Source: Dendrolimus kikuchii (taxonomy: Eukaryota; Arthropoda; Insecta; Lepidoptera; Lasiocampidae). From it: 64,000 nt of DNA. The first letter of the stretch is position 1. Each line of letters begins with the position of its first letter. A program made the position numbers and the translations under genes. A model generated the notes under the pieces. The model did no database searches. It had not been told where the DNA came from and saw only the letters and a program-made list of their open reading frames with translations. Location of the stretch: the NCBI GenBank assembly GCA_019925095.2, contig CM034407.1, positions 2,024,210-2,088,209 on the forward strand. The letters are read 5' to 3'. This document shows positions 14,001 to 63,961 of the stretch, in pieces.

Positions 14001-14872
14001 ACCGATCTGAAACCCAAATGAGACACGTAGACGCTTTGAGCAGAAATCCTGTTAGTCTAATACTTACCGAAACTACAGCACGTCTGAAGAGAGCTCAAGA
14101 TGATGACCTGAAGATAAAACTATTAAAGAAAATTTTAGAAAAAGAGTGGTATGAAAATTTTATTCTGGAGAATGGAGTTTTATGTAAAGCTAAAGACGGA
14201 ACTAAACTGACTGTTGTACCTAAAAAGATGCAGAATGAAATAATAAGAAAATGTCATGAAAAGGGTCATTTTGGAATTTTGAAAACTGAGGAATTAATTA
14301 ATAGAGATTACTACATAGATAATTGTAAAGAAAAATTTGAAATTCAACGATTAGAACTTATAGAAAGGCGAGGCAAAATATTCAGAAAATTCAGGAAGAA
14401 AATAGGAAAGTTTATAATAAAAAGAGAACACAAGCTATACAGTACGAAATTGGAGATTTAGTTGCGATTAAGAGAACACAATTTGTACAAGGATATAAGT
14501 TAAACCCGAAATATTTAGGACCATATAAAATTATAGAGAAGAAGAAAAATGACAGATACGTTGTAAGGAAAATTGGCAATGGCGAAGGACCTATGAATAC
14601 CACCAGTTCAGCAGATTTGATGAAACCCTGGTCCAATGGCGATGAAGATGAAGTATCACATTCATCTGGGTCAGATGAATAATGCAGGATAGCCGTGTGG
14701 GATTCGAAGACGCATTCCAACTCGGTAGCCAGGCCACACATTATGTTTTTTAAATTTATAAACCTGATATTGTAACTGTCAGTGTCAAAATATAGTCAGA
14801 AGAGGTAGTCTATGAATAAACGATGTAAGACTGTTCTAAGGAAGTTTGTTTTGCTTTTCTTCAAACAAAACC

Positions 14873-15342: not shown

Positions 15343-18300
15343 ATGGGTGTGTTTGTGTGCTTTTTCGTTTCATCGGCTTTCAAATTACAACGATTCTCAA
15401 GTATCACTTTAACAAATAAAAATTTGCAGACTTCAACTTCTCGCTACAGAGAGATTGCGTATGACTTGATGTTCCGTAGGACGATGCGCATGCGCCGTTG
15501 GTTGCATTGTGACGTCTTATTCTTCTTCTGATATGTGTTCGTCTCCGGTACCGATGCGAACCTTGCTCGCTCCAATTCTTCCAGCATTATCCCACTGAAA
15601 GCGAAACTCGTTTACAGTGGCCTAGCAGAACAGTTGCTCTCGATAGTGGTGGCCCAAGAGAGGCCGGACCTGGAGGAGCTGCGTGGCCAGCTGATCGTGT
15701 CTCGGGCCCAGATGGCCTCGCAACTTGCCGAGATGCAGTCGGATATATTGTACGGGCTGTCGAACAGCGAGGGCTCGCCCGTTGACGATCTGCCGCTCAT
15801 TCTGACCCTCGAGGCGATCAAGATCAAGAGCGCTGAAATATTGGTATGTTTATTTCAGTATTTATATAATAATATAAATTCTATAAAAATGTTCGTATTA
15901 ATGAATAAGCTTTAGAATTACTTAAGGGTCAGTGCAGAACAGAACAGAACGGAGCGCGGCGGAGAGGATTTTATTAACGCACTTGAAAATAAACTTTAAA
16001 ATGATTGCAATAAAGTGCATAAATGCTTGAACCTGACAAACGTGTCCTCGAAGATACGCGGGAATCCGCAATCCGCGCCCGCGTCGTACGCGTACTTTCA
16101 GTGTTGTCAATGAGTTTAAAGAGGGATGACGTCATTTTTTTAGATTTTGAATTCGAAGTACCTACATAACGAATAATAATATAACCATCATTATACATTT
16201 ATGAAGTCGCTTTGATTGTTAAAAATAATCTACATTTATACACTAAATGCAACAGTAAACGACATAACAGCTACCTGCTTTCACTTCCTTCAAAAACCAC
16301 TTTGTTTCAAAACAGTCTATTCTGTATAGAGACTAAAATTTACTATAAATTACCACTGAAAATTGAGGAACTCAACATCAAAAGCTTTAAATTAAAATTA
16401 AGATAATTACTAATAAATAAAGCATATCACACAATACATGAGTATCTTTCTGACCCAAATACTGATACAGGAGTATGATTTTGTGACATGAGGAATCATA
16501 ATTATTATTAAGCATTATTACTAAAAATTCAATATTAATCCAGGCATTAATGGGATAATCATATCCCAGTCCACCATCGTTGAGGAACTTTCGCGATAAA
16601 CTGGCATGTTTACTGTAGAGTGGCAACCCAGAACGGTTTACTCGCGCAGGCTCGCAAGGTCGCGCGCAAGCTCGAGCATACGCGATCCGTAAAGAGAATG
16701 TCCGAGACCGCGCGGGGATTATTCCTCTCTGTCTGCGCTGACCCTAACAAGTCATCTTTATTCAACTGAGTCACGAAATTTAAAAAATAATAATATGTAC
16801 AACAAACACCATGTACAGGTTGACCAAAAAAAGATGAAAATATTATATCAAGATTAATTTTGATACTTGGTAGCCATTGCAAGCTTTTATTTAACTTGCA
16901 ATGGATGTACCTATGTGTGTATGTATGTAAGTTCGGGTGGAATCTTGCACGTTAAATTTGACCAACTTCTCGGTTATCGATTGAGCTGAAATTTTGCACG
17001 CATATGTATATCGCGTGACAATACAATAATATGGTGCCATGGAGCTGATCTGATGATGGAGTCGGAAGGTGGTCATAGGAACTCCTGCACTAAACAAGAT
17101 AGACCGTCGTGTTTGGGCTCGTTTCACTTGTCTTTGACATTTGTGGGCTGTTATTATTTGTTTTGTTTACATCGATATTCTTAACTGGTAGATAAAAGTA
17201 GAAGACATTGAGCGCACCACGCTGGAGATAGACGAAGCACGCGACGGTTACGTGCCTGTGGCGAATCGCGGGCAGATTCTCTTCTTCTGTCTGTCGGGGA
17301 TGGCGAACGTGGACCCCATGTACCAGTATTCCCTCGAGTGGTTCGTCAAGTTGTTCGTCAGGAGTATGGCGGAGACGGAACCCAATGGTGTGTCACGCAC
17401 TTGGCTTGTTGAATGCTTTACTTGAAATTCCCGCGGGATTCTCGGGATACAAAGTATCGCAGCGTTTGAAAAGGATATGTAATCCATTGTTTAAGTGGAA
17501 ACTGTGTCGGCAATTTTTTTTTTTTTTTTTTATTGCAGGAGATCAGCAGACAGGCAGACGGCCCACTAGATGGAAAGCGGTTACCATCGCCTGTGGACAT
17601 TTGCAACAGCATAGTTGCTACAAATGCGCTGCTGCTCTCTTAAGGGAAACTGTAACCTGGTCACTAATGCCGGAATGCAACTCAAGGTTGTTATGGCGAC
17701 ATACTTTAGACCAGGGGTAATATTATAATAATAGTGATTCGGACTTAGATATCGAAATAATATATGATTTGTACAATTTATATAGATAACTGGCTTCTGC
17801 TTCTTCTTCTAGCTCCCGGGGAAAAAATATCATACATTTTATTGCATTAAGTTAGCTATTGATCAGTAACAAAATAACGCTAGAATGCGATTTTTTTTTA
17901 TATGGCCATTTTAATTCATTTCCAGGAAAATTCCCAGGGTAAAAAGTAGCGCATAAGTCTAGAAATTAGCTGTCGATCAACGAAGACCTCATCGAAACCG
18001 GCCCAGTAGTTTTAACGTGAATCCCCAACAAACAGACAAAACGACCAACAGACAAGAACTCTAAAAAAATTGCGTAGTTTTCTCCATCGTTTGTATAATC
18101 TATTCCAGTTGTTTTTTTTAACACCTTCAATGTACAGACATGGCTTGTTTAGAATTTTGTAATGGTGTAGATAGATTAGGATTCCACGCGATTTCGTCCA
18201 CGTTAGACGAGATAAGCTAATTTATACGTGTATTAACAACTTGAATTCCCTGGATATAAAGCATCGCAGATCTTAAGTCCGGGAGTTTGCTATCGATCAG

Positions 18301-24300: not shown

Positions 24301-27300
24301 AGTGGGCTTTTAAAACATTCGCACTGCAATGTTTCAGATCTTCTCAAGTTCGCGGATAAAATGAAGATGGGCAAACGCTTCGAGAGCATATCCCTGGGCC
24401 AAGGCCAGGGGTCGTTGGCCGAGACCATGATGAGGGTGGGCTGCGATTTTGGCAACTGGGTCTTCTTCCAGGTGAGTCGAGTCGATACGCGTGACGGGAT
24501 AGGTACACTGTCTGACCACTGATATTGAGGCTGCCTGAATCCAGCAGTGGGTCGTGTATGGGCTGATATCATTATATAATTAATGTAAATTAATTAATAC
24601 AAATTAAGTTATGTAAATTACTCATATTAATTAAATTAATATAAATTTATGTAAATTAGTAATTTTGTTAATTAGGTATTGTAAATTAGTAATTTTATTA
24701 ATGTAATTTAATCAATTCATATAACCCTAGTGGTTGGTACCTTTTCAATATATGCAAAATATTGTTAAAAAAAAATCTGTTACACGAGAGGTGAAAGTGA
24801 CATATTTAGGTATGAGATGATTTGGCGCACGAGCGTAGCGAGGGCGTTAATAGTTCGAGTGCCTAAATAGGTCACTTTCACCAGAGGTTAACAGTCTGCG
24901 TTTCATTTCGAATATGAGGAAAGTAAATAAAAACTGATTAGTTAAACAAACAACTACATCTTCAATTAAATCAGGCGTTAAATGCATATCTAAATCTGAT
25001 GAATACATTTAATACGTCGCATATGTTATAAGTTTTTTTTCTGTGGTATTTTACTAGACAGTATTTTTTTTATCACTGCTGATAATAAATATTTAGCTCA
25101 AATCTATGTAAATTAAATAATAATCTACTGAAAAGTAATTTATAATTATAAAATGATTTTTTTTTTACAATTTATGTCGTTATTTAACAGGGTCTGTAAA
25201 AAAAAACTTGAGACATGAGTCGCGTGTATTGACAGCAATAAAAGTCGTTTCCCAGAGACGAAAATTACCGTTTTCATCCCTGTGATCAGGCAACTCCAAG
25301 CGTACTTACAGACTATGAGAAATGAAAAAATTATAAAAGCCTGCATAAATATTATGACAATTCTGTTAGCGCGTGTTTCTTCACCACAAATATCAGGCTC
25401 CAACATGTGCCATCCAATCCATGAGTGGGGATAAAAAACATTGTTTATGCATTTTGACGTAGAACTGTCACCTGTCACCATCCTGGATGCCCGTCCTGGA
25501 ATCGAACGTGGAGCATATTCAGCCCGAGTTGGTGCACAAAGACTTCAGGCTGTGGCTCACTTCGACGCCTTCCCCGCATTTCCCGGTCGCATTGCTTCAG
25601 AACGGTGAGTTTGGTCATTTTGGAAGAAGTGGAGCCCCTCTACGATTTTACCATTTACGCCTTTTTGTCTGTTTTTTTTTATAGCTACGTTCCATAAGAG
25701 GCTCACAACGACCGCGATTTTTCCCGTTACACTTGTTTGCGGGCATTACAGTCATAAATTCTAGTGGAACGAATCATAGAGCGTTGACGTCATAAACGAC
25801 AAAATACATAAATGTCATTGGTTGATTTGAAAATCGCGCCTTTTTCAATGTCAGTCGGTAGAGAGAATTAATACTCTGTGGTCAACGCCTATTTCGACCC
25901 AGCCCTTGACATAGTCGTCGTGAGCGCTGTGTGATTGAAAATGGTGACGTCTTATACTGACGGTTATATTGACGGTATATTAACATATATATATATGTTG
26001 TTGTTCGTCCCTACCCCGCAAGGGAACTGGCGTGAAGTTATGTATGTATGTATATATGTATATATATATATATGTGGGTTTTGTTTGAAGAAAAGCAAAA
26101 CAAACTTCCTTAGAACAGTCTTACATCGTTTATTCATAGACTACCTCTTCTCACTATATTTTGACACTGACATTTACAATATCAGGTTTATAAATTTAAA
26201 AAACATAATGTGTGGCCTGGCTACCGAGTCGGAATGCGTCTTCGAATCCCACACGGCTATCCTGCATTATTCATCTGACCCAGATGAATGTGATACTTCA
26301 TCTTCATCGCCATTGGACCAGGGTTTCATCAAATCTGCTGAACTGGTGGTATTCATAGGTCCTTCACCATTGCCAATTTTCCTTACAACGTATCTGTCAT
26401 TTTTCTTCTTCTCTATAATTTTATATGGTCCTAAATATTTCGGGTTTAACTTATATCCTTGTACAAATTGTGTTCTCTTAATCGCAACTAAATCTCCAAT
26501 TTCGTACTGTATAGCTTGTGTTCTCTTTTTGTTATAAACTTTCCTATTTTCTTCCTGAATTTTCTGAATATTTTGCCTCGCCTTTCTATAAGTTCTAATC
26601 GTTGATCTTCAAATTTTTCTTTACAATTATCTATGTAGTAATCTCTATTAATTAATTCCTCAGTTTTCAAAATTCCAAAATGACCCTTTTCATGACATTT
26701 TCTTATTATTTCATTCTGCATCTTTTTAGGTACAACAATCAGTTTAGTTCCGTCTTTAGCTTTACATAAAACTCCATTCTCCAGAATAAAATTTTCATAT
26801 GACTCTTTTTCTAAAATTTTCTTTAATAGTTTTATCTTCAGGTCATCATCTTGAGCTCTCTTCAGACGTGCTGTAGTTTCGGTAAGTATTAGACTAACAG
26901 GATTTCTGCTCAAAGCGTCTACGTGTCTCATTTGGGTTCCAGATCGGTGTTCTATCTTATAGTCAAATTCTTCAAGAAGGAGTGCCCATCGAGCAACTCT
27001 CGGAGGTAAGTCTTTTTTCTGTAACGTCATAGTTAGGGCTGAGCAGTCAGTCACAATTTTAAAGCGGACTCCAAGTAAGTAAACTCTGAATTTCTTGACA
27101 GCTTCTACAATAGCTAAAATTTCTAAGTAGTAACTATGGTATTTCTTCTCAGCAGGAGTAGTCTTTTTGCTCATATAGTGAACAGGGTGTAGCTGATTGT
27201 CGTGTGGATTCCTTTGCAATAAAACAGCTCCATATCCGTCTATACTTGCGTCTGTATGTAACTCTGTCTCAAAATTAGGGTTGTAAATTCGTAAAACTGG

Positions 27301-30300
27301 TGAGGAACATAAAATATGTTTCAATTCTTCGAAAGCTCTCTCACACTTTAGATCAAAGTTAAACATAACATTAGTCTTCAATAATTCTGTTAGTGGCTTT
27401 GCTATTATTGAGTAGTTCTTAACAAATTTTCTAAAATAGCCAGTCAGTCCTAAAAATGATCGTAATGATTTGATATTATGAGGCTTTTTAAATTTTGCAA
27501 CAGCATGTATCTTTTCCTTGGAAGGTCTTATCTGATTATCACGAATTATGTAACCTAAATAATTTATCTCGTACTGTAAGAAATGACATTTCGCCCAATT
27601 AAATTGTAAGCCAAACTCTTCAGCTTTTCGAAGTACTTTCTCTAGTTTAACAAATCCTTCTTCTTCTGTCCTAGATGGTATAATCAAATCATCTAAATAG
27701 GCAAGAACAGTGCCCTCTGACATTAAATCTTGAAAGATATCATTGATAAAGCGTTGGAATACAGATGGTGCGGTGCATAAACCAAACGGCATTTTCTTAA
27801 ATTCATATTGCCCTTGTGGAGTAACAAATGAAGTGTATTTTTGACTATCCTCGCAGACATCAACATGTAAAAAACCATTCTTCAAGTCAAGTGATGTAAA
27901 TAGTATTGCTTCTTTCAATTTGTCTACTTGATCCTCGATGAGTGGAAGTGGATATCTTTCCTTTATAATCTTCTTATTTAGCTTTCTAAAATCTATACAT
28001 AATCTGTAGCTTCCATTTTTCTTTTTCGCTAACACGATAGGGCTTGCATATTCCGATTTACTAGGTTTTATTACTTCTTGATCTAACCATCCTTGTATCT
28101 GTTTATTAACTATGTCCTTTTCTAGAGGTGACAGCCTTCGTGGAGTCTGGTGTATAGGATCTTCATCAGTAAGTATGATTTTCAATTTAACATTTGATTC
28201 CTTCTTTCTAGTCTTCAAGTTATCGTAATTATCCAATAAATGTTTAATCTTGTCTTTATATTTCAGCTTCTTGATATCATATTTCTCATCAAATTCTTCT
28301 TCGTAGTCGTTAATTTGTGTAAGGTGTAATATTCTTTTTACAGAGATCCCGTCGGCAGAGAAAATAATTTCAACGTCTTTTAATATCGGGTTTCCAAGTA
28401 TGACATTAACAGGTATTACATCATCGTCGATAACATGCATCAAGGTTTCAAAATGAACGTTGTCTATTTCAACTTTTGCCATAAAAGATCCCTTCGTGCA
28501 AACTTAGTACAAGCTGGTGATTGGTGATCAGTTTCACCACAATTGAAGCATCTTTTCATGGTATGATTTTTACGTCCGGTTGTCATCTGAATAGGTCTTT
28601 GTTGCATCTTGTGTTCTTTAATCTGTGTATATACTTCAAGTTTCTTTCTAAATTGTTTGATATCAGTGGCGCCGTAAAGAATGGCCTTATTTATTTCAGA
28701 ATCACGAATTCCATCAATAACATATTCAATAAGTGCCTCATCTTCTAAATTTCCATGCAACGCCAGTTCTTTCATATGTAAAAAATACTGTTGATATGTC
28801 TCATCCGGTTTCATTTTGCGTGATGCTAATTTCTTGTGAATGCTAGCACTATTTAATTTCGGACCAAATTCTTCTAATAAAGATTCTTTTAATGTATCCC
28901 ATGACGTAATAGAGCCTAGCGATCGTAAAAATAATTTAGCTGTACCTGAAAGCAGTCTCTTCGCGTAAATAAGTTTTTCAAGATTATTCCATTCCATTAA
29001 ATTTGCAGTGTCATTAAAATCGGTCAGCCAATTCGTAATAGGGTAGGTATCATCGCCTGTGAACGGTGTCATTGATTTTTCCAAGTCGCTAAATGAAATT
29101 CGTACTCTGTAACCAGCTTCTGAACAATTACTATCTGAGTCTTCGATATCTTTATTTTTCTTCGGTGGCATCTTGTATGATTGGTTGTAAGTCTTTCAGT
29201 CGTAAATTATAACCAATTCATAAAACGTCTTCATAAAAGAAAAATAATAGTCTTTATTCCAAATTCTGGGAAATTTCATGCGCTGGTATCATTATGCAAA
29301 TTAGTGTCGGTAAAACAGCACACAATGACTCGTCTTCAATTTTAATTTCGAGGTTGTTTCGTAATCATCAGATCAAAACTCACGTTAAAACAATGCTTCG
29401 CAGGATTCTTGCATGATCCTGTTATGATCCCGGACGAGCCCCCATAAAGTTGTGGGTTTTGTTTGAAGAAAAGCAAAACAAACTTCCTTAGAACAGTCTT
29501 ACATCGTTTATTCATGGACTACCTCTTCTCACTATATTTTGACACTGACAGTTACAATATCAGGTTTATAAATTTAAAAAACATAATGTGTGGCCTGGCT
29601 ACCGAGTCGGAATGCGTCTTCGAATCCCACATATATATATATATATTAATGACTAATAAATCATTTTAATTGTATCATCGTCGCTTGTTCATGTAACTAC
29701 TAAAATCAATTTGATAGATGTCAAATGTGGCTTTATAGAAAGGCTGAAGTTGAAGTACCTTTAGTAATTAAAAAAATTCTTTCGAAGTCTCACTCTTTTC
29801 TTTCACCATATCCCAATTAATTGGGATATGCAATGCAGGGTTGCAACACCCAAGGGGCTGCTGTTCTCTTAAGGGAGACTGGAACCTGGTCACTAATGCC
29901 GGAACACAACTCAAGGTTGTTATGGCGGCATACTCTAGACCAGGGGTGGTAGCCATCCAGTCGGACAAATGCCCTACCACCTAGCTGTGGGTTGTTTTGT
30001 CGCTTTTTACACCTGGCCGCCCAGCCGCAGGAAATTGTATTCTGTCTCCGTTCCTGCACGGATAAAAGTTTGGGAGGTATTCGACATATCGAGGTTCTAC
30101 TGTTTGTTACGTACGTACCCGCGCACTGGGTCGTTTTTCCTATTGTTTTTATCTATCTACCTGATGGAAAGCGGCTACCATTGCCTTGGAATATTTCTAC
30201 CATTAAAGGTGCTACTAATGTGCTGCAGCGCTCTAAAGGGAGATTGAAACCTGGCCACATACTATAGACCAGGGATAGTAGCCATCCAGAAACCCTACCT

Positions 30301-42300: not shown

Positions 42301-45300
42301 AATGGCTAGCGCACGCGTCCCGAACTCAAAGGGCGCGGGTTCGATCCTGGCCGGAACGCATGCACCACTTAGGCAGTTTTCGGACCTAATGTGCATATTG
42401 TTACAATTACCATGTGCTAAAAACGGTGAAGGAAAACATCGTGATGCAAGCTGCACATCGAGATAACCGATGTGTCAAACCTGCCAAGCCGCCTTGGATT
42501 GGACAAGCGTGGCGGGTATACTGTCTATTCCCCTATAATGGGAGGCCCTAGCCCAGCAGTGGGACATTTATGGGCTGTTATTATATTTATATTTATGAGC
42601 GTTGTGTGATCGGAAATGATGACGTCATCAGTGACGTTTTCGCCACGACCACAACGATCGCGGTCGCTTTGTGGAACGGCTAATTGAGCATTTTGGGCGT
42701 TGTGAGTTACTAATGGAACGACCTGTAAGTCTATTATTGATATTTACATGTCTATTATTGATATTTACATGTCTATTTCACTTCTCTTTAAAGAATCTTC
42801 ATTAAATATTGTAATTTGGCACCTAGAGACCTGCTGAAAGCCCTTAAAGGGTTGGTGGTGATGTCCGAAGCTTTGGAGAACATGGCCAGCAGTCTGGCCC
42901 GAAACGCTGTTCCCCTTATGTGGAGTTCTAAGGCTTACCCGTCCTTGAAACCGTTGGGTTAGTTTTCAGTATCAAGGCAATTTATAAAAAAAAATATATA
43001 TGACCGTATTATATGTACGATGCCAAAAAAAAATATAGTTGTGTAAATTCAAGCCACGCGGGAATGAAGTTACGCTGACAGTTTTTTTTTTTTACTTTAT
43101 TAACATGAAGTGTCAAAGTCATTCGCGCCATCTTAAAATGTCAGTGTCAATGTCAACAATCGTATTATATCGATTTGTAGATTCTAGAGACCACAGGCCA
43201 TAAAAATGGCCAGGACATTTGGAGGGCTTGCGTGGGGGCCATGGGAAGGCCAACGCGTAGAGGCCCTTTGACAAATTTAATGTAAATGTGGCCTGACGCT
43301 GACCCGCGATTATCCCTGTCTACACCATATAATAATGCACCCAAGGACAATCCCCGGCCAGTGTAGGACTATTGTGGGAAATGAGGACAACAAGTACCGG
43401 GCTATTGGGGTGAACTGCTAGTGGTAGTTGGGGTCTGGGAATATGGGGACTATGGCGTCTGCCCGTCGCAATGTTCGGGGAACATGGAAAAATGGACAGA
43501 TGGTGACTCGCCACTCCCTGCATGGGCCCCAAAAAATGCCATAGATTATATACAATATTATTAAGGTAATTACATAGTGCTGCCATTTGTTGCGATTTGT
43601 ACTAGTGCTTCCATCTGTTATTCAATATAAACAAGTCGCTATTTGTTAAAATAAACATATTCTTTAATTTCTTTCTGTCTTTTGTCATTCGAGAAATAAC
43701 CTCACTAAGTCTGTCCATGTTTGTAACTTAAGATATTTAAAGGATTTTTTTTCTACAACACCTTGAAGTCGGCGTCAAGTAAAACAAAAAACAACTACAA
43801 CATTGCAAAATGCACCGACTTCAAGATGTTGAAAAAAATACTATTTGTTCGTTACTTTTTTATTACAAGCTTTTATTTAACTTGCAATGGATGTCCCTAT
43901 GTATGTAAGTTTGGGTGGAATCTTGCAAGTTAAATTTAACCAACTTCCCGGTTTCCGATTGAGCTGAAATTTTGCACGCATATGTTTATCGCGTGACAAT
44001 GCAATAATATGGTACCGTGGAGCTGATCTGATGATGGAGTCGGAAGGTGGCCATAGGAACTCCTGTACTAAACAAGATAGACCCGTCGTGTTTGGGCTCG
44101 TTTTACTTGTCTTGGCTAGCACTCTGCTGTACAGGATCTCAAAAGCTTGTATTTCAAAACCTTTTTAAAAAAGCTTATTGTCGCATGTTTTTCTTGGTAA
44201 TAAACTTTTTTTTTTACCACAGCGGCATGGGTGAAGGACCTGCTCCTCCGGGTGCAGTTCATGCAGCAGTGGGCCGAAACCGGGATCCCGAAGGTGTTCT
44301 GGATCTCTGGGTTCTATTTCCCGCAGGCGTTCCTCACTGGCGCCCTGCAGAACTATGCCAGGAAGCATGTGATCGCCATTGACACTGTCGCGTATTGCTT
44401 CGAGGTTGGTGTTTGGCTTCTCTTCTTTATTATTTCTATTGTGAAGCAGGCAAATGGTCGGCCTAATGGAAAGTGGTGGTCTTCGATAGACGTTTGCAGC
44501 ACTAGAAACAAAGCCAACAAGTTGCCATCCCTATGAGCTCTAACCAACCAAGATAATGATTCCTGTGTAGCTGATCATAGAAGACGGCCAGGTGGTAGGG
44601 TATTTTTGCTCGACTGGATGGCGACCACCCCTGGTCTAGAGTATGCCGCCATAACAACCTTGTGTTGTGTTCCGGCATTAGTGACCAGGTTCCAGTCTCC
44701 TTTAAGAGAGCAGCAGCGCATTTGTAGCACCTTTGGTGTTGCAAATGTCCATAGGCGATGGTAACCGCTTTCCATCAAGTGGGCCGTCTGCCTGTCTGCT
44801 GAACTCCTGCAATAAAAAAAAAGACGAATGCCGTTTTTTTTATTTTTGTAAATGCTAGCTCATTCATAACTCGTCGCACCTGGTCTCCAATCTCCACTTC
44901 CTGCTACCAGTCCTCGCATTTTCTAACAATCCCCACTCCTCGACTTCAATCCTCACCAATCTACACCACTCCCATTTACAATATACATCGATTCCTTTAC
45001 TTTCCACGATAAAAGCAATCTCCGGTATAATAATAATAATAAAAACAGCCTAGAAATGTCCCACTGCTGGGCTCGGGCCTCCCATTATAGGGGAACGGAC
45101 AGTATACCCGCGACGCTTGTCCAAGGCGGCTTGGTTAGTTTCACACATCGGTTATCTCGATGTTCAGGTTGCATCACGATGTTTTCCTTCACCGTTGTTA
45201 GCAAGTGGTAATTGTAACAATATGCACATTAGGTTAGAAAACGGCCTAAGTGGTGCATGCGTTCTGGCCAGGATCGAAACCACGCCCTTTAAGTTAGGGA

Positions 45301-49674: not shown

Positions 49675-50410
49675 TGAGACTAGAACCCGATCTCAGCGCC
49701 ACCTACCACTGTGAATCTAAACGATGCGGGAACCCATTCAAACACACAAAAACAAAATCACCAAAATCGCTCTCGGTGATCAGGAGGATTCTAGAACCCG
49801 ATCTCAGCTCCACTTACCGGTTCTAACTGTGAATCTAAACCATCCGGGAACCTATTCAAACACAAAAACAAAATCACCAAAATCGCTCTCGGTGATCAGG
49901 AGGATTCTAGAACCCGATCTCAGCTCCACCTACCGGTTCTAACTGTGAATCTAAATCATCCGGGAACCTATTCAAACACAAAAACAAAATCACCAAAATC
50001 GCTCTCGGTGATCAGGAGGATTCTAGAACCCGATCTCAGCTCCACCTACCGGTTCTAACTGTGAATCTAAATCATCCGGGAACCTATTCAAACACAAAAA
50101 CAAAATCACCAAAATCGCTCTCGGTGATCAGGAGGATTCTAGAACCCGATCTCAGCTCCACCTACCGGTTCTAACTGTGAATCTAAATCATCCGGGAACC
50201 TATTCAAACACAAAAACAAAATCACCAAAATCGCTCTCGGTGATCAGGAGGATTCTAGAACCCGATCTCAGCTCCACCTACCGGTTCTAACTGTGAATCT
50301 AAACCATCCGGGAACCTATTCAAACACAAAAACAAAATCACCAAATTCTAGAACCCGATCTCAGCGCCACCTACCGGTTCCAATTGTGGCTGTAAACTAT
50401 CCCGGGACCC
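49675..50410. repeat. 116-bp tandem repeat array
   Basis: The phrase attctagaacccgatctcag starts at 49788, 49904, 50020, 50136 and 50252, a constant 116-bp step, with partial units at both ends (last step 93 bp). Inner units are nearly identical. Each holds tcgctctcggtgatcaggag. The frames in it are not genes. Confidence 0.95.
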
Positions 50411-51240
50411 ACTCAAACACACACCAAAGAGGAAATAGGTTACGGGGACGGAAGGAAGTGAGCCATCGGAACTCGCAGTAGAACGAAATACGAGTAGCTC
50501 AAGGTTAATCGTTTCATGCCGGTATTCTGTGAGAGCGTGGATTCAGATTCGTATCACACCGAGCGAGTCGCCTCTAAGAGCTAATCAACTCCAGCATGGC
50601 TCTACTGTGTTGTACAATGTGTTTTTCCTACTGAATAGATTCTTATTATTGCTAGCAGTGCCGTAAATAGCCTTTATGCGCCCTATGCGAGCTTCTATAA
50701 CTGAGTCCTTGTTTTTTTTAGATATTATAGGTACCCTAGCTAGAGAAGGGCTATGTATAGGCCTACTTTATTTCATTCAGGGTGATAAAATAACGCACAA
50801 GGACCTTGGTGTTGGTGGACCAGTTATCTAATATTCTGGAAGAAAAATCTATTTCTTTAAAGAACTAGAAGGAAAAATGAGCGCGATGTTTTGTTTAATT
50901 TAACAGACGTTTTTGATGATACTGGCATGTAGGTACGTATGTGTTGGAATCGAGCACTAAGGGCGCAGCGGGAGCTTATCAGGAGTAAACCGAAAAAAAA
51001 TAATAGTCCCGCCTGGTCTGGTCATTCTTGCGCCACCAAAGTCTACGCCCTGTGCTTGGGCACCGGTAACACCGCCCTATCTACGGCACTGATTGCTAAT
51101 AAGGTCGTTGACAGTCGAAACCGCTAGGAAACTTATTGTCATCTAATGTTGATATAAGACTGATCACTGACGGCTAGGCACACTACTCTTCAGGATAGGC
51201 ACTGGTGCGCTATGTAATCTTATATCTATATACTAATATA
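50411..51240. other. intergenic, no gene recognised
   Basis: A 62-codon frame at 50939 lacks any family resemblance. I do not call it. Confidence 0.3.
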
Positions 51241-52191: not shown

Positions 52192-52196
52192 TTTTG

Positions 52197-52543
52197 TGTT
52201 CACGCCACCGCGTAACGAACGATGATTCCCCGAAAAAGTAATTTACCCCGCACTTCCGCGTCTCAACGATCAGTCTGAATCGACCCGTCGTAAAGACATT
52301 CACGCATCGCGCGCGCATTTGAGATATCCACCCAATTGCAATACTAATCGGGTTCCAAGAGCTTGGTGATAAGTGGCAAGTGAATCTAGTTGTGAAGCGG
52401 GAGATATATAACAAGAGAACACGCACTGCTGCTCCTGTATCGCAGACGCTCCGGTTACTCAGCTCATATTATTACGGGTGAGTCCATTTATCTCCATTCC
52501 CTCTTACCCTTGCACCCTTGAAATCTGGCAATCGGCCAGATCA
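52197..52543 (+). repeat. BEL left LTR (normal orientation)
   Basis: 347 bp, TGTTCACGCC...GGCCAGATCA, followed by TA and then the primer-binding site. The identity with the right LTR extends five bases inward (TATGG). Confidence 0.9.
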
Positions 52544-52545
52544 TA

Positions 52546-52584
52546 TGGTCCTTCGAGCCGGATTTGAACCAGCGACCTATGGAT
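52546..52584 (+). other. BEL primer-binding region: 39 nt complementary to tRNA-Tyr
   Basis: It starts tggtccttcgagccggat, the usual 18-nt site, and continues ttgaaccagcgacctatggat. This is complementary to the T arm, variable loop and anticodon stem of tRNA-Tyr. Normal copies carry about 18 nt because reverse transcriptase stops at methylated A58. Confidence 0.75.
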
Positions 52585-52693
52585 TCTAAAGTTAGACTGG
52601 GATGAATCGGCTCCCAATGATGTCACATTTCAATTTCAGCACATTTTTGAAGACTTACCTCTACTCTCTGCTCTTCGACTCCCCAGAACCCCA

Positions 52694-54946
52694 GTGACCA
52701 ACTGTAAGAGCTCTAATGGTGTCAGTCTTAATGACTGTCTGCACACTGGCCCACCGCTCCAACGTGATATTACTGACATCATTCTAAATTTTCGTACTCA
52801 CAAAGTGGTCTTTAGTACAGACATCCAGATGATGTTTAGAAATATACTAGTTCACCCAGACCACAGACGGTTCCAACTCATTCTATGGCGCTCTTCTCCA
52901 GATCAACCTCTGCTCACTTACGCCCTGTCCACTGTCACGTATGGCCTACGACCCAGCCCCTTCCTCGCCAATCGATCTATTATACAGCTGGTCACTGATG
53001 AAGGTCACCGTTTTCCCCAGGCTGCACAGGTTCTTACGCACTCCATATTCGTGGATGACATTCTGACTGGGCATGATTCAGTTGACAAGGCAATAGCTCT
53101 GCAGACTGAACTCATTGAGTTACTAGCCCTAGGGGGATTTCATTTGCGAAAGTGGACCTCAAACTCTCGTCAGCTTTTAGAACGCTTCCCGGATGATCAA
53201 TGTGACATACCCAAGGATTTTGATGTTGTACCCGACTCCAATGCAATCAAGGTACTTGGTATGCAATGGATACCCCAAACGGACGAATTTACATATCACA
53301 TTTCGGTACCTACACTGGAAAAATTTACCAAAAGGTCAATACTCAGTACCATCGCTCGTTTATACGATCCTAGTGGATGGATCAGCCCAGTTATTTTCCG
53401 CGCAAAACTGCTCATTCAGCACCTATGGACTCTAAAGTTAGACTGGGATGAATCGGCTCCCAATGATGTCACATTTCAATTTCAGCACATTTTTGAAGAC
53501 TTACCTCTACTCTCTGCTCTTCGACTCCCCAGAACAATTTGCACCAGCAAAGATTCCACCTACACCCTACACGGTTTTGCCGATGCATCCGAATCCGGAT
53601 ATGCAGCCGCAGTCTATCTTCATGAAACGAATATCACGGGTCAGGTACACGTCAGACTACTTGTTTCTAAATCCAAGGTAGCCCCCATTAAAACCCGACA
53701 GACTATACCAAAGCTGGAACTTTCAGCTGCACACCTCACTTCGCTGCTCATTTCTCGCGTCTCTGTTCAACTTTCTGCCCACATTACCATTCAGCAACAC
53801 TTTTGTTGGTCAGACAGTACTATCGTACTCGCCTGGCTTAAAACTCCTTCTCAATCCCTACAGGTCTTTGAGGCCAATCGAGTCTCTGCCATTGCAGCCA
53901 ATCCATGTAACCCTACTTGGAGACATGTACCCTCAGCTCTTAACCCTGCCGACTGTGCTAGCAGGGGAATATCAGCACAGGAACTCTTAGCCTATGACCT
54001 ATGGTGGTCGCCTACTTGGCTCAAGGCCCCACCTGATACCTGGCCCACGATGCCCCCTGCTTTGGGTCATCACGTACTGCCTGGTCTAAAACCCAGAAAA
54101 ATGGTAGCTCACATCGCGGTTCCTGATCTAGACACGGATTTACTCACGAGATTCAGCTCCTTAGACACACTTGTAGGCGTAACCGCATGTATTAAACGTT
54201 TTGCACACAATTGCTTGGTATCTTCTCACTCTCGCATCGTTGGTCCCATTACCGTAGACGAACGTAAGAAAGCGCTCTTACACTGGGTACGCTCAGTCCA
54301 ACAAAATATGTTCGCTGAAGACATCCACCGACTGCAAACTAACAAATTATGTACAGTGCGAATACAACGCCTCTCGCCCTTTCTCAAGGATGGTCTTCTT
54401 AGAGTAGGAGGGCGCTTGTCCAACTCAGCCCTTAGATATGACACACAACATCCCCTCATCTTACCCAGTTCAAGCCCCCTTGTGGACCTAATTATAGATC
54501 ATTTCCACACTATACACTGCCACCCGGGCGCAGATACACTACACGCACTACTCCGTCAACAATACTGGATTTTATCTGGAAGGCGAGTCATTCGTCACCG
54601 TGTCTTTAAATGTGTACGCTGTTTTAGGCATCGAGCTCAGCCGAATCCCCCTTTTATGGCCGACCTACCGGCTGATCGAGTCAGCCCACAACCGGTGTTT
54701 AGTCAAGTGTCCACGGATTTTGCCGGACCATTCCTAATTAAATCAAGTACTCTACGCAATGCCAAACTTCTCAAAGGCTACTTTTGTGTTTTCGTTTGTC
54801 TCGCCACCAAGGCAGTGCACTTAGAGGCTGTCTCGGAACTTTCTACGGACGCCTTTTTTGCGGCATTGCAAAGGTTCGTTAGTCGGCGCGGAATCCCTAC
54901 CCTAATTCGCTCTGATTGCGGTACAAACTATGTCGGCGCCATATGA
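52694..54946 (+). pseudogene. BEL/Pao Pol fragment (RT, RNase H, integrase N-part)
   Basis: A 750-codon open frame. Reverse transcriptase enters mid-domain and keeps the BEL-type catalytic FVDDILTG near residue 120. RNase H-like sequence (HGFADASESGYAAAVY) begins near 292, and the integrase zinc-binding region (HCHPGADTLHALLRQQYW) lies near 605. The integrase core shows STDFAGPF and SDCGTNYVG, the first two Asp of the triad. The frame stops at the LTR before the catalytic Glu. It cannot encode a working integrase. No stop or frameshift within, which implies recent origin. Confidence 0.9.
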
Positions 54947-55290
54947 TCTGGCCGATTGCCAGATTTCAAGGGTGCAAGGGTAAGAGGGAATGGAGATAAA
55001 TGGACTCACCCGTAATAATATGAGCTGAGTAACCGGAGCGTCTGCGATACAGGAGCAGCAGTGCGTGTTCTCTTGTTATATATCTCCCGCTTCACAACTA
55101 GATTCACTTGCCACTTATCACCAAGCTCTTGGAACCCGATTAGTATTGCAATTGGGTGGATATCTCAAATGCGCGCGCGATGCGTGAATGTCTTTACGAC
55201 GGGTCGATTCAGACTGATCGTTGAGACGCGGAAGTGCGGGGTAAATTACTTTTTCGGGGAATCATCGTTCGTTACGCGGTGGCGTGAACA
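54944..55290 (-). repeat. BEL right LTR (inverted)
   Basis: Exact inverse of the left LTR. It joins pol at ...GTCGGCGCCA, sharing CCA with the tRNA 3' end. Confidence 0.9.
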
Positions 55291-55384
55291 TTTTGAATTA
55301 TGCAATTCAGACGTTTCATTCAAAAGATATCGCGATATTTAAAATGTAAGTATTAGTGTTGTAGCCAAATATACTAATATTGTT

Positions 55385-55590: not shown

Positions 55591-56220
55591 GTATGTATTA
55601 GAACTATGGGACATGTTTTCCTGAAATAAAATTATTAATAAATAGTGAATTAAGGATAGTGAATGGGCTCCTTAATATCAGCTTTAAGGAACGCCAAAAT
55701 TATCAAAATATCTTACGAGTGTAGAGAGTTGTGACGTCATACCTTGAACAAGTCGAATACCGTGTTATTATTTCAACAGCAATTACAATTATTTAGAATT
55801 TATAGTAGAATATGTCATACCCAATTTGCATTCTAATTACTCGCCGTATTAAGTGCGTGAAAGAATAATACAAACAAATACAATGGGAGCGGTCATGTTT
55901 ACAAAGAATGAAATAATTGAACATCACCATCGAGCGAGGCGTAATTAAGAGACGGGATTGTGGGGGAAATGCGAATTCATATTTAATTACTTAGTCCCGT
56001 GATGGAGGTTCGTTTCCATATAAATTAGAGCTGTATGGAAAATGGGGGATGCTCGTGTCATACGCAGCTGAATATAAACATCACTATCCAACGCGTGATG
56101 TACCGAAAGTCAACAGAGAGAGTAAAAGTTATAAACTTAAATCAGTCCGACATTGGCAACATCAACACGAATAAAAAGTTGGAGCCATCGCCGCACAAGA
56201 ATTGAGTAGAATAATAAATA
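55591..56220. other. intergenic, nothing recognised
   Basis: AT-rich. No gene or family assigned. Confidence 0.3.
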
Positions 56221-56221
56221 G

Positions 56222-56805
56222 TGTTACGAGTGTGGGACTCGAATTAAAATGCCGTTGGAATTACTATAGAATTTATTAGAACTATACAAACACGTATAAC
56301 ATAGGAACAAATATAACTAGACACTACTAATACAAACTGCACGATTCAATAACACGCGTAGAGCCCGTCACTATATCGCTTGTCGAATTTACTTCTTACT
56401 CGTATCGTAATTCTCGCCCCACCCCTCCGTTCGGGCATTGTTTTATAGTAAACTGTACAATTCACAATGGAAGCTCGTGGGCTGGTTTCCTCCAAGAAAA
56501 TGTAATTTGCACACCTGCGAACGGCCAACAAAGTCGAAAACAATAACAATAAGGATTAGTTCGACACTAATGTCGGCCATAAAACAAGTAGAAAAACAAT
56601 AGCATATTTTTCTTAATTACAAATTCTAAACACAAAGTAAACAAAAGAATTTCTAAATCCGTGAAGGCAATAAACCGCGTTTTTCCGACCGGCAGGTGTG
56701 CGCATTTCTTTGTCGGTATTACCTATGTTATACGTGTTTGTATAGTTCTAATAAATTCTATAGTAATTCCAACGGCATTTTAATTCGAGTCCCAGACTCG
56801 TAACA
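56222..56805. mobile_element. LTR (TGTTACGAG family) with its first 84 bp inverted at the far end
   Basis: 56222-56724 is an LTR like 59482-59965, ending at cttctttgtcggtat. 56724-56805 is the inverse of the LTR start with one mismatch, so the block begins TGTTACGAG and ends CTCGTAACA. Flanks are aatag and ctatt, which are inverse rather than direct. Confidence 0.75.
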
Positions 56806-57000
56806 CTATTATCTTCAGCGGCTTCGTGTGAACGGAATATCCGGGGTTTTCTTTTACCTGCGGATTCCGCACGCACATACTTTAGTGTGTTTATTATTAC
56901 TAGTGGCCGCCTGTGGTTGAAATTCGACTATAATAATTAATTTAAGTTATAAGTTTGACCAATTTTAAGGTTCTGTTGTCAAAGACTATACGTCTATAAT
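56806..57000 (-). repeat. dispersed repeat R, inverse copy
   Basis: ctattatcttcagcggcttc to gtcaaagactatacg, inverse of 39480-39670. More of the R element may follow to about 57240. Confidence 0.65.
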
Positions 57001-60701: not shown

Positions 60702-61013
60702 TCTATGGTTAGGCTCCGCACTCGGTTTTGCTTGCATCTTAGTAGTTTGCCTTGGTGTTGGTTTTGTTTTTTTAAGGTGAGTGTATTGTAAAGGCGATAC
60801 AATCACATGTAAAAAAATAATTGTATCGTTTTATCATTACATTAGTTTGTAACAGAACGGATCTTTCTTTATTCTGCTTTTTCTTTTTTTTCTTCCTCTC
60901 TGTGTATATTAACATTATTCAAATTAATTTGTGCACAATATATCTAGATTGAGCGATTACTTTTTCTTATTCTTTATCTTGTTTAAATTGTTATTATATT
61001 TTTATAATCTGTA

Positions 61014-62321
61014 ATGGCCATTCAAATAAAATTTCTACTTCTTCAGAAATCTGAACTTATGTATGAAGTGGCGATTAGAGGCGAATCTCCTTCTGATAAT
61101 GTTGCAGGGTTACGACGTCAAGTTAATAAACTGACGCAATTATATCCTTCAGATGACATCATAGATTCCGTGTATGATTTTTCTGATGACATAGAAGGTG
61201 TTCAAGAAACATTAGAAAAAATTAAAACTAACCTCGATTTACTTAAAAATAATTTTAATGAACCATTATTTAACAGAACTAAATCTCTTTTACACCATTT
61301 ATTTTACAGACTGCAAAGAATAGAAAAACCGGAAACTGTTGATGAGACGTCTTTATTAAAAAAGTGTAAAAAATGTTACGAAACCTTTTATGAAAATCTT
61401 GTAACCTTGCCTGGATCTAAAATTAGAGAGCCTAAAGATTTAGCTTCAACATCTGATGATGATTCTTTACCTACTAATGTTCCAAATATATCTGGCTTAA
61501 ATATATCTGTCTCCTGTGATCGAGGCTTAGTCGGTGAATTCGCTAAATTGAAATATGATGGGAAAACTTGCGTAAGGTCTTTCATACAAAAATTAGAAGA
61601 ATTTCGGCTATCAAAAGGTATCTCTGAAGACAAAATGCTTACTTCCGCCTTTGATATATTCATAGGAGATGCGCTCCATTGGTACCGTAATGTTAGGAAT
61701 AAAGTAAACCACTGGAGCGATCTTATTGTCGCTCTTAAGGATGATTTTGATCGTCCGGATTATGATTACCTTATGACTTCAGAAATACGACAGCGTACAC
61801 AAGGTGATGATGAAAGCATAACAATATATCTATCAATAATGGACGGTATGTTTTCCCGCCTAACTAAGCCTTTATCTGAAGAAACTAAATTAGAAATTTT
61901 ACTACATAACATACGTCCTTCATATTCGACAATTATAGCTGCGAGTCCTTTTATAAAAACTATAGATGATATTCGAACCGTTTGTAGAAATTATGAACGT
62001 ATTAAAGTAAGGTCGGAAAGCTTTAAAGAACCGCCCCCAGCTAGTATGAGCACTCTAGCACCCGAATTTAGTTATCAGTCTTCAAAGCACAAGAACTTAA
62101 GTCACCAAAATACGTCCTCAAATGCACAAAAGCGATTCGAATATCAACAAAATGAATCTTATAAAATAGCTACAATCAAAAAGAAACCATTTTGTTTTCG
62201 GTGCCGCGTTGACACTCACACTATGAGAGACTGTACAGCAGAGCGTTCAATATTTTGTTTTAAATGTGGTAAGAAAGATGTTCGTATTCCTGATTGTCCT
62301 GTTTGTAATCCAAAAAACTAG
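61014..62321 (+). CDS. Gag of Ty3/Gypsy element at right edge
   Basis: A 435-codon frame with a capsid-like region (HWYRNVRNKVNHWSDLIVAL near 220). Two zinc knuckles are at the C-terminus: CFRCRVDTHTMRDC (canonical CCHC) and CFKCGKKDVRIPDC, where Val replaces the His ligand. The ATG at 61014 is the first in frame. Pol starts 57 bp after the stop. Fits a nucleocapsid-bearing Gag. Confidence 0.85.
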   Translation: MAIQIKFLLLQKSELMYEVAIRGESPSDNVAGLRRQVNKLTQLYPSDDIIDSVYDFSDDIEGVQETLEKIKTNLDLLKNNFNEPLFNRTKSLLHHLFYRLQRIEKPETVDETSLLKKCKKCYETFYENLVTLPGSKIREPKDLASTSDDDSLPTNVPNISGLNISVSCDRGLVGEFAKLKYDGKTCVRSFIQKLEEFRLSKGISEDKMLTSAFDIFIGDALHWYRNVRNKVNHWSDLIVALKDDFDRPDYDYLMTSEIRQRTQGDDESITIYLSIMDGMFSRLTKPLSEETKLEILLHNIRPSYSTIIAASPFIKTIDDIRTVCRNYERIKVRSESFKEPPPASMSTLAPEFSYQSSKHKNLSHQNTSSNAQKRFEYQQNESYKIATIKKKPFCFRCRVDTHTMRDCTAERSIFCFKCGKKDVRIPDCPVCNPKN

Positions 62322-62377
62322 TTATTGAAAATTGTAGACCAACCAATTACAGAGATAGCTCGGACTGGAAAGATTGG

Positions 62378-63961
62378 TTGCTAACAATCAATAATTTATT
62401 CTCAAGTTGTTCTATATCTACAATTTTCAACAATAAGCCGAGTAATGATCCTCGTCCTTATGTCAAAGTTCAAATAAATAATGACCTATTCTTACATGGT
62501 CTTTTGGATTCCGGTTCTGCTGTTTCTATCTTAGGTCAAAATAGCCATAAACACTTCCTAAAATATGGTATGCTCTTGTGTACAGATGAACTTATTACAG
62601 TCACTGCTGCGGGTGGACAAAAGATAATGTCCGTTGGTTATGTCCTGCTACCCATAACTTTCGAAGATCAATTTTTCTTATTAAAAACACACGCCATTCC
62701 AGAAATCGAAACTACTCTAATTTTAGGAATAGATTTTTGGAAAAAGTTTAACCTTTGTCCAAAATACCTTTGTAAAAAAGAAAATTTACATGAAATTGAC
62801 CCTGGTCTTTCAGAAATTTTAAATTCTCCTTATTCTTACTTATATGACTATGATAATTTAAGCGATATCCAAAAAGCTGTGGCTGATAAAATTGTAAACA
62901 AATTTAAAGATATCTCATTTGCGGAAAAAGGGTTAGGTAGGACTAATCTTATTAAACATCGCATTAATACAGAGGACGCCGAACCTATACGACAACGATA
63001 CTATCGCATGTCACCTGAGAAGCAGCGCATTGTCACGGAGCAAATTGATGAGATGCTTGCTTTGGATGTAATTGAGCCTTGTAAAAGCCCGTGGTCTTCT
63101 CCTGTACTGGTAGTAGGCAAAAAGGACGGAAATCCACGGTTTTGTTTAGACAGCCGAAAGCTCAACTCTGTCACGAAAAAGGATGCGTACAGTCTGCCAT
63201 ACGTATCTGAGATTTTGGATAATCTAAAGGATGCTCGATACTTGTCTAGTATAGATTTGTCTAAAGCTTTTTGGCAAATCTTAATCGAAGAACCAGACCG
63301 GGAGAAAACGGCATTCTATGTTCCTGGTCGTGGTACTTTTATGTTTAAGGTTACTCCATTTGGTCTTACTAATGCCCCGGCAACACAACAAAGACTAGTT
63401 GATATTTTGTTTGGACCTGAGTTTGAATTAAAAGTTTTTGCATACCTTGATGATATTATTGTTATTAGTAAAGACTTTGATGAACACGTAGCTTTGCTTG
63501 AACAAGTTCTCGACAAATTACGCTCAGCAAAACTTACTGTCAATCTCGATAAATGTCAATTTTTTAGAAGCAATTTACGTTACCTTGGCTATGTCGTCGA
63601 TGCTCAAGGATTGCGTACCGATCCTGAGAAGGTTCAGGCTATTCTTGGCTTTCCAACACCTTCTAGTAGAAAAGAAGTAAAACGTTTTTTAGGGACTGCT
63701 TCTTGGTATAGACGTTTTATTCCTCATTTTAGTACAATTGCTGGGCCTCTAAACAAACTTACCTCTAATAAAAAGAATGCTCCTCCGTTCCAATGGACTG
63801 GCGAAGCTGATAAAGCATTCCTTGAGCTTAAATCTAAGCTGATACAGGCACCCGTTCTAGCCTGCCCCGATTTTAATTATCCATTTGACGTACACACTGA
63901 CGCTAGTAGCTTTGGTATAGGTGCTATGTTAGCTCAGACTATAAACGGTAGCATCCTATAG
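62378..63961 (+). CDS. Pol of Ty3/Gypsy element (protease, RT, start of RNase H), frame broken near the end
   Basis: Aspartic protease LLDSGSAVSIL lies near residue 46. Reverse transcriptase carries FCLDSRKLN, SSIDLSKAFWQI and catalytic YLDDI near residue 357, and RNase H begins at HTDASSFGIG near 510. After NGSIL the frame meets a stop at 63959-63961. The adjacent frame continues with the normal RNase H sequence (HPIAYMSRSLTKPEK), so a small indel near 63945 breaks Pol. The rest is off the window. Confidence 0.87.
   Translation: MLTINNLFSSCSISTIFNNKPSNDPRPYVKVQINNDLFLHGLLDSGSAVSILGQNSHKHFLKYGMLLCTDELITVTAAGGQKIMSVGYVLLPITFEDQFFLLKTHAIPEIETTLILGIDFWKKFNLCPKYLCKKENLHEIDPGLSEILNSPYSYLYDYDNLSDIQKAVADKIVNKFKDISFAEKGLGRTNLIKHRINTEDAEPIRQRYYRMSPEKQRIVTEQIDEMLALDVIEPCKSPWSSPVLVVGKKDGNPRFCLDSRKLNSVTKKDAYSLPYVSEILDNLKDARYLSSIDLSKAFWQILIEEPDREKTAFYVPGRGTFMFKVTPFGLTNAPATQQRLVDILFGPEFELKVFAYLDDIIVISKDFDEHVALLEQVLDKLRSAKLTVNLDKCQFFRSNLRYLGYVVDAQGLRTDPEKVQAILGFPTPSSRKEVKRFLGTASWYRRFIPHFSTIAGPLNKLTSNKKNAPPFQWTGEADKAFLELKSKLIQAPVLACPDFNYPFDVHTDASSFGIGAMLAQTINGSIL

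Follow-up and report, generated by a model that had tools for sequence, protein, structure and literature searches.

An insertion of BEL/Pao descent with inverted LTRs

The DNA analysed here (the window) is a 64,000-nucleotide (nt) stretch of Dendrolimus kikuchii, positions 2,024,210-2,088,209 of the forward strand of contig CM034407.1 in assembly GCA_019925095.2, from a genome of 705 Mb; coordinates given without a contig prefix are window positions, and L-numbers denote fetched loci of the retroelement family concerned. At 52192-55295 lies a 3.1-kb element that the initial annotation had read as a BEL/Pao retrotransposon whose two long terminal repeats (LTRs) stand in inverted orientation. 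Its arms, 52197-52548 and 54939-55290, are complementary at 352 of 352 nt (100%) and are spaced 2390 nt apart. Two inverse 347-bp LTRs free of differences had been described; the identity holds on alignment but runs 5 nt further, each arm being a 347-bp LTR (TG...CA) followed by TATGG, in which two nt of spacer precede the three that open the primer-binding site (PBS). As annotated, both arms turn the same terminus outward, the end of the unique 3' region (U3), TGTTCACG, and TTTTG stands immediately outside each; two random places in the window agree in a 5-mer with a probability of about 0.0013 (0.0012-0.0014). Flanks and interior are non-palindromic, and the arms stop at LTR-specific points. 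Because the arms show no difference in 352 nt and the interior frame is open, the sequence suggests a young insertion, with gene conversion between the arms as an alternative source of their identity.

Only a fragment of pol lies between the arms, from the middle of the reverse transcriptase (RT) to the early part of integrase, with an open reading frame of 749 amino acids (aa) at 52697-54943. The assignment to BEL/Pao is borne out by Pfam, which finds Peptidase_A17 ('Pao retrotransposon peptidase', E = 1.7e-47) and Integrase_H2C2 (4e-7) in this frame, together with RVT_1 at 7e-4, under that family's own cut-off; the nearest named protein matches are lepidopteran, and the Dendrolimus kikuchii protein P0010 is identical along a 431-aa run. 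The copy thus has the Pao-type A17 peptidase, RT (below the cut-off) and integrase of a BEL/Pao pol and a short target-site duplication, and it lacks direct LTRs, gag, a complete integrase and the region from pol to the 3' LTR. A search for the parent element, as had been proposed, found canonical relatives, and the LTRs are direct in L010, L015, L020, L022 and L031. The window copy descends from the BEL/Pao family without having its canonical structure.

DIRS-type elements carry inverted terminal repeats and a tyrosine recombinase and make no target duplication; an element of that type is excluded here by the integrase-type pol and the 5-bp duplication. Foldback DNA transposons have long inverted repeats without LTR origin, and are excluded because the arms are the LTRs of a family whose 28-base LTR start has 649 exact occurrences in the genome.

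Three joints and a copied primer tRNA

The insertion is not the simple palindrome-ended complementary DNA (cDNA) first envisaged: it contains three joints (tRNA-pol, pol-pol with filler, and pol-PBS; Table 1), has nothing but the pol fragment between its arms, and ends most simply in two separate plus-strand strong-stop DNAs. The earlier description had overlooked a 39-nt copy of tRNA-Tyr, a duplicated pol segment and a 12-nt filler. The tRNA copy (52546-52584) follows directly on the left LTR and spacer and is an exact antisense match from nt 76 to nt 38. The family's normal leader after the PBS, ATTCCAACTGGCGACC..., is not tRNA sequence, though similar to it further on, and the stretch from nt 58 to 38 is not in this canonical leader. 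MPG1045, a D. melanogaster tRNA-Tyr primer covering nt 56-32 (PMC7704012; papers cited by PMC number are drawn on in excerpt throughout), fits the window exactly from nt 56 to 38 and then diverges, and a Bombyx small RNA over the same stretch has, on our own reading, T at nt 58 (PMC3699532). Within the window ARAGORN finds no tRNA and Rfam gives only sub-threshold matches near the PBS; viral contigs scanned for pol relatives and for the PBS yielded nothing usable.

The tRNA copy meets pol across the 9-nt homology ACCTATGGA, and homology of at least this length was reached by 33 of 2000 shuffled pol sequences and by none of 1000 other window stretches. The terminal T opposite A38 was retained despite the C of pol at this position, which is explained most simply if the copied strand ended at nt 38. 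These features bear on the possibility that host repair joined two partial cDNAs end to end before integration, integrase then using the two U3 ends. At the right junction pol and the inverted LTR's TATGG overlap by 1 nt, as is often the case after end joining, and foreign repeat pieces occur in a second insertion described below; the homology and the retained mismatched base, however, point to primer extension by RT, at least at the left junction, and most tRNA copies stop at one position. We consider end joining rather improbable.

Inverted segments are a known outcome when a cDNA integrates into itself (autointegration). That explanation would call for a family copy whose pol itself has GGCGCCATA; at this point GGCGC and then AAG stand in all 13 of the 13 rows compared, which come from 11 other copies. 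In addition, the right LTR does not finish on its inner side with the processed CA, the copy continuing through TA into the PBS (352 versus 347 nt), and two free U3 ends would not be expected after autointegration. Since TA and PBS bases were copied, this explanation is largely refuted, and we reject it as having almost no likelihood. At the remaining joint, the filler has a partial match of 14 of 16 nt to the opposite pol strand, which one of 150 random sequences equalled and which is suggestive only; no exact match to the 12 nt was found among the fetched loci.

Table 1. Features of the inverted-LTR insertion in window coordinates.
Feature	Position	Strand	Basis
Target-site duplication TTTTG, left copy	52192..52196	+	Sequence; chance agreement about 0.0013
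Left LTR, 347 bp, TG...CA, U3 outward	52197..52543	+	347 bp also in relatives L002-L010
Spacer TA between LTR end and PBS	52544..52545	+	Same in relatives
18-nt PBS, complementary to tRNA-Tyr 3' end (nt 76-59)	52546..52563	+	Human tRNA-Tyr probe, 19/21 nt, hand-counted
tRNA-Tyr read-through copy, nt 58-38	52564..52584	+	D. melanogaster primer MPG1045 (PMC7704012), exact over nt 56-38
Duplicated pol segment, source 53431-53535	52585..52689	+	9-nt homology ACCTATGGA plus terminal T mismatching pol
12-nt filler; CAGTGACCA equals opposite strand of pol 52989-52997	52690..52701	+	Weak
Pol fragment, open frame: middle RT, RNase H region, first part of integrase	52702..54939	+	Sequence, Pfam, canonical copies at both ends
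PBS start and spacer (TATGG on minus strand), 1-nt overlap with pol	54939..54943	-	Sequence, canonical copies
Right LTR, inverted, U3 outward, identical to left LTR	54944..55290	-	Sequence
Target-site duplication TTTTG, right copy	55291..55295	+	Sequence

Related junctions in the family and in other LTR families

The genome holds 115 LTR-PBS junctions (LTR end plus 14 matching PBS bases), of which 82, the window copy included, were examined, taken from a list of 100 of the 115 and from copies already fetched; the sample was picked by similarity to the window copy, and 40 of the 1161 entries on the initial candidate list were scored. A matching PBS followed by the normal leader is present in 59 of the 82, and the leaders of the remaining 23 are non-standard. 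By exact match, tRNA copying in these 23 goes as far as nt 59 in 11, nt 38 and nt 63 (the search floor) in four each, nt 60 in two, and nt 58 and nt 61 in one each. None ends between nt 57 and nt 39, although L018 (nt 60) could reach nt 55 with one mismatch. The nt-38 group consists of the window copy, L008 (with one mismatch, at nt 58), L016 and L104, each with a different partner; the final T at nt 38 is common to tRNA and partner in L016 and L104. The segment after the junction is inverted in 6 of the 23 (L008, L009, L010, L020, L095 and L097, with L074 ambiguous) and in a seventh copy outside this set, L031, and strong-stop DNA was therefore apparently extended on plus-sense templates.

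Some copies carry a PBS variant, TGGTCTTTCGAACCGAAT, with three mismatches to tRNA-Tyr or, in L017, TGGTCCTTCGAACCGAAT, with two. This mismatched PBS is found in 16 of the 40 first-listed copies (L017, L019, L021, L023 and 12 others), with an otherwise normal leader. Odd leaders occur in 0 of 16 copies with mismatched and 23 of 82 with matched PBS (Fisher P = 0.020, or 0.038 without five deletion-like copies), and within the 40 first-listed copies in 0 of 16 versus 13 of 24 (P = 0.0003), tests that are only indicative because the samples were chosen by similarity to the window. L008 has the mismatched variant at the end of its inverted leader and tRNA sequence at its own LTR end. Mis-transfer may be favoured where the PBS is mismatched.

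The same footprint recurs beyond the family. CATATGG followed by the PBS and NTGAACCAG has 30 occurrences in the genome, four of them in the window-copy family; the other 26 apparently belong to other LTR families, as the sequences before the PBS differ. With 20 of these 26 read as 121-base stretches, 24 tRNA-type leaders were analysed in all, and in 14 the copy ends at nt 38. Leaders that pass nt 37 read A, A, T, T and G there, with the templated C in 0 of 5. At nt 58 the templated T stands in 7 of the 24, A in 13 and C in 4, and the A in the window-copy family could stem from its own leader. Between nt 50 and nt 39 there are four mismatches in total, the remaining positions being fixed by the search pattern. 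Since some copies share ancestry and a few may have run past nt 37 by a base or two, these counts are not of independent events. L118 (G000:C2:4827508-4827628), apparently of another LTR family, has a tRNA copy to nt 38, then a few bases and then its own inverse, as if a strong-stop tail had folded back.

Integration of rearranged copies and a second insertion with two U3 ends

Besides the window copy, far ends were read for 12 rearranged copies (L007-L010, L013, L015, L016, L018, L020, L022, L024 and L031). The far LTR end is intact in six of them, and all six have a 5-bp duplication: TCTGG in L007, TAGGA in L010, ATTAG in L015, GAGTG in L020, ATCGC in L022 and ACATA in L031. The 3' LTR of L018 stops at nt 104, yet this copy is flanked by GTAAT. 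Wherever the far LTR is visible among rearranged copies it is direct, L077 and L104 included, and L009, whose LTR and 16 nt of PBS run into an inverted LTR, appears one-ended; U3-U3 products are therefore rare even among rearranged copies. The 3' LTR breaks nearly coincide, lying at LTR nt 104 in L016 and L018 and at nt 111 in L007 and L008. Breaks in L007, L010, L016 and L022 and at the end of L009 lie no more than about 30 bp from a common site in the protease region (AACAAAATTTTTTTGGGCCCC), possibly a stop of minus-strand synthesis or an RNA break point. By subtraction, 425 of the 649 LTR starts are flanked by GA, as 3' LTRs are, versus 224 with other flanks, an excess from which many family copies may be without an intact 5' end.

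The search for U3-outward pairs covered these 224 starts (preceded by G in 70, C in 49, HA in 31 and T in 74) and the first 100 of the 649, so that GA-flanked starts lay mostly outside it. Three pairs closer than 10 kb were found among the 224: the window copy and C7:26337187-26340376, both U3-outward, and one direct pair on C4. About 0.18 U3-outward pairs would be expected by chance, against the two observed. The first 100 starts, of which 80 entered a first pair scan and all 100 a second, gave 19 pairs within 10 kb, 18 of them direct, one U3-inward and none U3-outward. Another inverse-LTR insertion with a 5-bp duplication, for which the initial annotation had proposed searching the genome, thus exists on C7, where CATTT stands on both flanks as a perfect duplication. 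There, inverted pol follows directly on U3 1-172, and an inverted repeat of this junction at the right gives arms of 546 nt that are 99.5% identical; the right end includes foreign repeat pieces, among them 44 nt resembling L121, the leader of apparently another LTR family, followed by a shortened inverted U3. The C7 insertion is independent of the window copy in both site and structure.

These counts weigh on the idea that two ordinary insertions in opposite orientation, paired or nested, were brought together by a deletion, with TTTTG matching by chance, or that one LTR was inverted in place or by gene conversion. Opposite neighbours can arise by chance in a family with 649 starts, and one U3-inward pair was indeed seen on C1. 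A deletion would, however, need an end point no more than 5 nt from an LTR end and leave a duplication that has a chance of about 0.0013; the arms are identical at 352 of 352 positions, the second pair also has a perfect 5-bp duplication, and two U3-outward pairs among the three under 10 kb exceed the expected 0.18. We reject this explanation as very improbable.

Fold-back, or snap-back, synthesis is a stronger competitor: a single plus strand starting with the strong-stop DNA would fold its 3' end back to its own PBS and from there copy its own 5' LTR, and the panhandle would later become double-stranded and be integrated. The C7 arms include the common LTR-pol junction, as self-copying gives, and both L009, with its inverted LTR after 16 nt of PBS, and L118, with a tRNA copy and then its own inverse, are of the kind such copying would leave. 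The window arms, by contrast, have only the LTR and TATGG in common, the left one running on into tRNA, and a panhandle would have one double-stranded end, so that a second primer would still be required for two-ended integration. Fold-back is possible, though we think it unlikely.

Other arrangements were seen alongside these pairs. The C1 pair (G000:C1:36410256 on the minus and 36414810 on the plus strand, 4.55 kb apart) has its U3 ends inward; both starts lie outside the T, C, G and HA lists and therefore seem to be preceded by GA, as 3' LTRs are, and the pair may be an insertion with U5 ends outward on both sides. L136 (G000:C21:16164460-16165010) has a partial LTR, an 18-nt PBS and an inverted U3 (from about nt 90 to 1) before other DNA, and pol, also inverted, on its left side; it is a further inversion based on the PBS, with a single U3 end facing outward. 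Two 65-nt stretches of the window, 43899-43963 and 16921-16985, are 94% and 91% similar to one of the foreign pieces in the C7 insertion and are possibly leader pieces of another LTR family.

Origin of the window copy

With a probability of roughly 0.7, we read the window copy as an aberrant reverse-transcription product of a young BEL/Pao element that integrase inserted by way of two U3 ends. The initial proposal that integrase took up a cDNA with two U3 ends, inverted during reverse transcription, is thus the best-supported reading, without the simple palindrome-ended copy that the proposal assumed. An origin before integration is favoured by the exact U3 termini and 5-bp duplication at both ends, by a junction that holds copied primer tRNA, which a genomic rearrangement would not be expected to supply, and by sister copies that share the junction type together with a second U3-U3 insertion that has its own duplication. 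Both ends are proposed to be strong-stop DNAs because the window copy has one of each kind, the left with tRNA copied to nt 38 and the right with U5, the spacer and 2-3 PBS bases.

In the sequence of events that we propose, priming at the polypurine tract would yield a first plus-strand strong-stop DNA that copies U3-R-U5 and then the primer tRNA over 39 nt, reading through A58 (1-methyladenosine, m1A, in primer tRNAs) and stopping before G37 (1-methylguanosine, m1G, in mammals). Instead of undergoing PBS transfer, this DNA would anneal to minus-strand pol by the 9-nt match and be extended there, with one backward switch. A further strong-stop DNA, made after the tRNA had been cut near its junction, would supply the right end, either as a primer on plus-sense pol or as a template for the growing strand. 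The resulting duplex would start with U3 on both strands, and integrase would join both ends.

Several observations weigh against this reading. Known U3-U3 insertions number only two, and the C7 copy differs in inner structure and suits fold-back copying better. The 1-nt homology at the right junction fits priming, self-copying or ligation alike. Among the 24 tRNA-type leaders, five stop at nt 40, 41 or 48 and five pass nt 37, and among the 23 odd family leaders the five of the nt-59 group that continue in leader (L061, L064, L067, L090 and L100) could be plain deletions. A clear 5-bp duplication is absent in 4 of the 12 copies whose far ends were read, L008, L009 and L013 showing none at their truncated far ends and L016, whose LTR is broken at the same place as that of L018, at most 4 bp; in one of the 12, L024, no far LTR was found. 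Cytosolic tRNA-Tyr of human and cattle carries m1G37 (PMC7200024), a residue that we infer in the moth from mammals, and m1G is stated, for plant tRNA, to block base pairing (PMC7704012); a Drosophila primer spanning nt 37 nevertheless worked, in the same paper that expects m1G to disturb priming (PMC7704012). Finally, the inverted structure might be an artefactual fold-back in assembly; yet the window arms end at LTR-specific points between non-palindromic flanks and interior, a duplication is present, and comparable rearranged copies stand on other contigs. An assembly artefact is scarcely credible, and we reject it.

Other elements in the window

Two similar retroelement copies, at 11474-14458 (+) and 26494-29195 (-), have gag, RT and integrase zinc-binding domains. 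An LTR-type element with gag and RT lies at 61008-63958 (+), and a non-LTR element with endonuclease and RT domains at 4942-7584 (-). An 89-nt inverted repeat pair (56217-56305 and 56722-56810, 416 nt apart, 99% identical) resembles a small inverted-repeat element, and a 116-nt tandem repeat occupies 50000-50440.

Discussion

The closest parallel to the proposed events is the model for the yeast elements Ty1 and Ty3, in which priming at the polypurine tract repeats: a first strong-stop DNA copies into the tRNA and is a dead end, the tRNA is removed by a cut at its junction or close to it, and the strong-stop DNA made next terminates at U5, the PBS not being renewed from the tRNA (PMC5371799). 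Our reading fits this succession, and both types of end are present in the window copy, although the order of their synthesis is not readable from sequence. On PBS renewal the moth family gives mixed signs: 16 of the 40 first-listed copies combine a mismatched PBS with a normal leader, yet the normal leader also follows a matching PBS in 59 of the 82 junctions examined. Ty1 and Ty3 are Copia and Gypsy elements that use tRNA-iMet, of which 12 nt are copied (PMC5371799); the window copy, in contrast, is a moth BEL/Pao element with tRNA-Tyr, 39 copied nt and two integrated U3 ends. The sections of that paper available to us do not present the by-products as supplying the two ends of one integrated element (PMC5371799).

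Plus-strand strong-stop DNA of human immunodeficiency virus 1 (HIV-1) likewise stops at modified bases of the tRNA, here tRNA-Lys3, mainly at m1A58 with a minor product at modified nt 37; the HIV-1 stops come from in vitro and cell work (PMC13191261), those of the moth from fixed genomic junctions. Complex LTR insertions in the Triticeae are also non-canonical, with similar outer LTRs and a 5-bp duplication, from which it was concluded that they were made before integration; these template-switch elements share a third, internal LTR, and inverted LTRs are not described in the accessible text (PMC1950507). Drug- or mutant-induced integrations of HIV and Rous sarcoma virus (RSV) resemble the window copy in their abnormal proviral ends, but in those cases host enzymes insert one of the ends, and the usual trace is a larger rearrangement of host DNA in place of a short repeat (PMC5041404).

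A wider proposal, whose chances we judge to be even, is that BEL/Pao of this moth makes successive strong-stop DNAs whose by-products often serve as cDNA ends, the genome storing many integrated 3' ends. These ends would map the methylated bases of tRNA-Tyr, through stops beside nt 58 and at nt 38 and through misincorporation at nt 37 and, in many cases, nt 58, and integrase would accept the U3-U3 product as a regular substrate. To our knowledge, BEL/Pao reverse transcription has hardly been studied. A search of mainly open-access literature, judged mostly from titles and abstracts, brought up no recognised report of an inverted-LTR insertion of such origin; the ingredients are known, and the integrated two-U3 product, found twice in one genome, and the footprint of tRNA positions in genomic junctions appear to be new.

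Search tools that look for direct LTRs only would probably overlook U3-U3 insertions. The two insertions indicate that the integrase of an LTR element can, in nature, insert a cDNA with two identical U3 ends, and fixed genomic junctions offer a readable record of plus-strand strong-stop synthesis in BEL/Pao. Two questions thereby become open to tests from sequence alone: whether animals, too, use the recycled plus-strand priming proposed for Ty1 and Ty3 of yeast, and whether fossil footprints of tRNA methylation are preserved in genomes.

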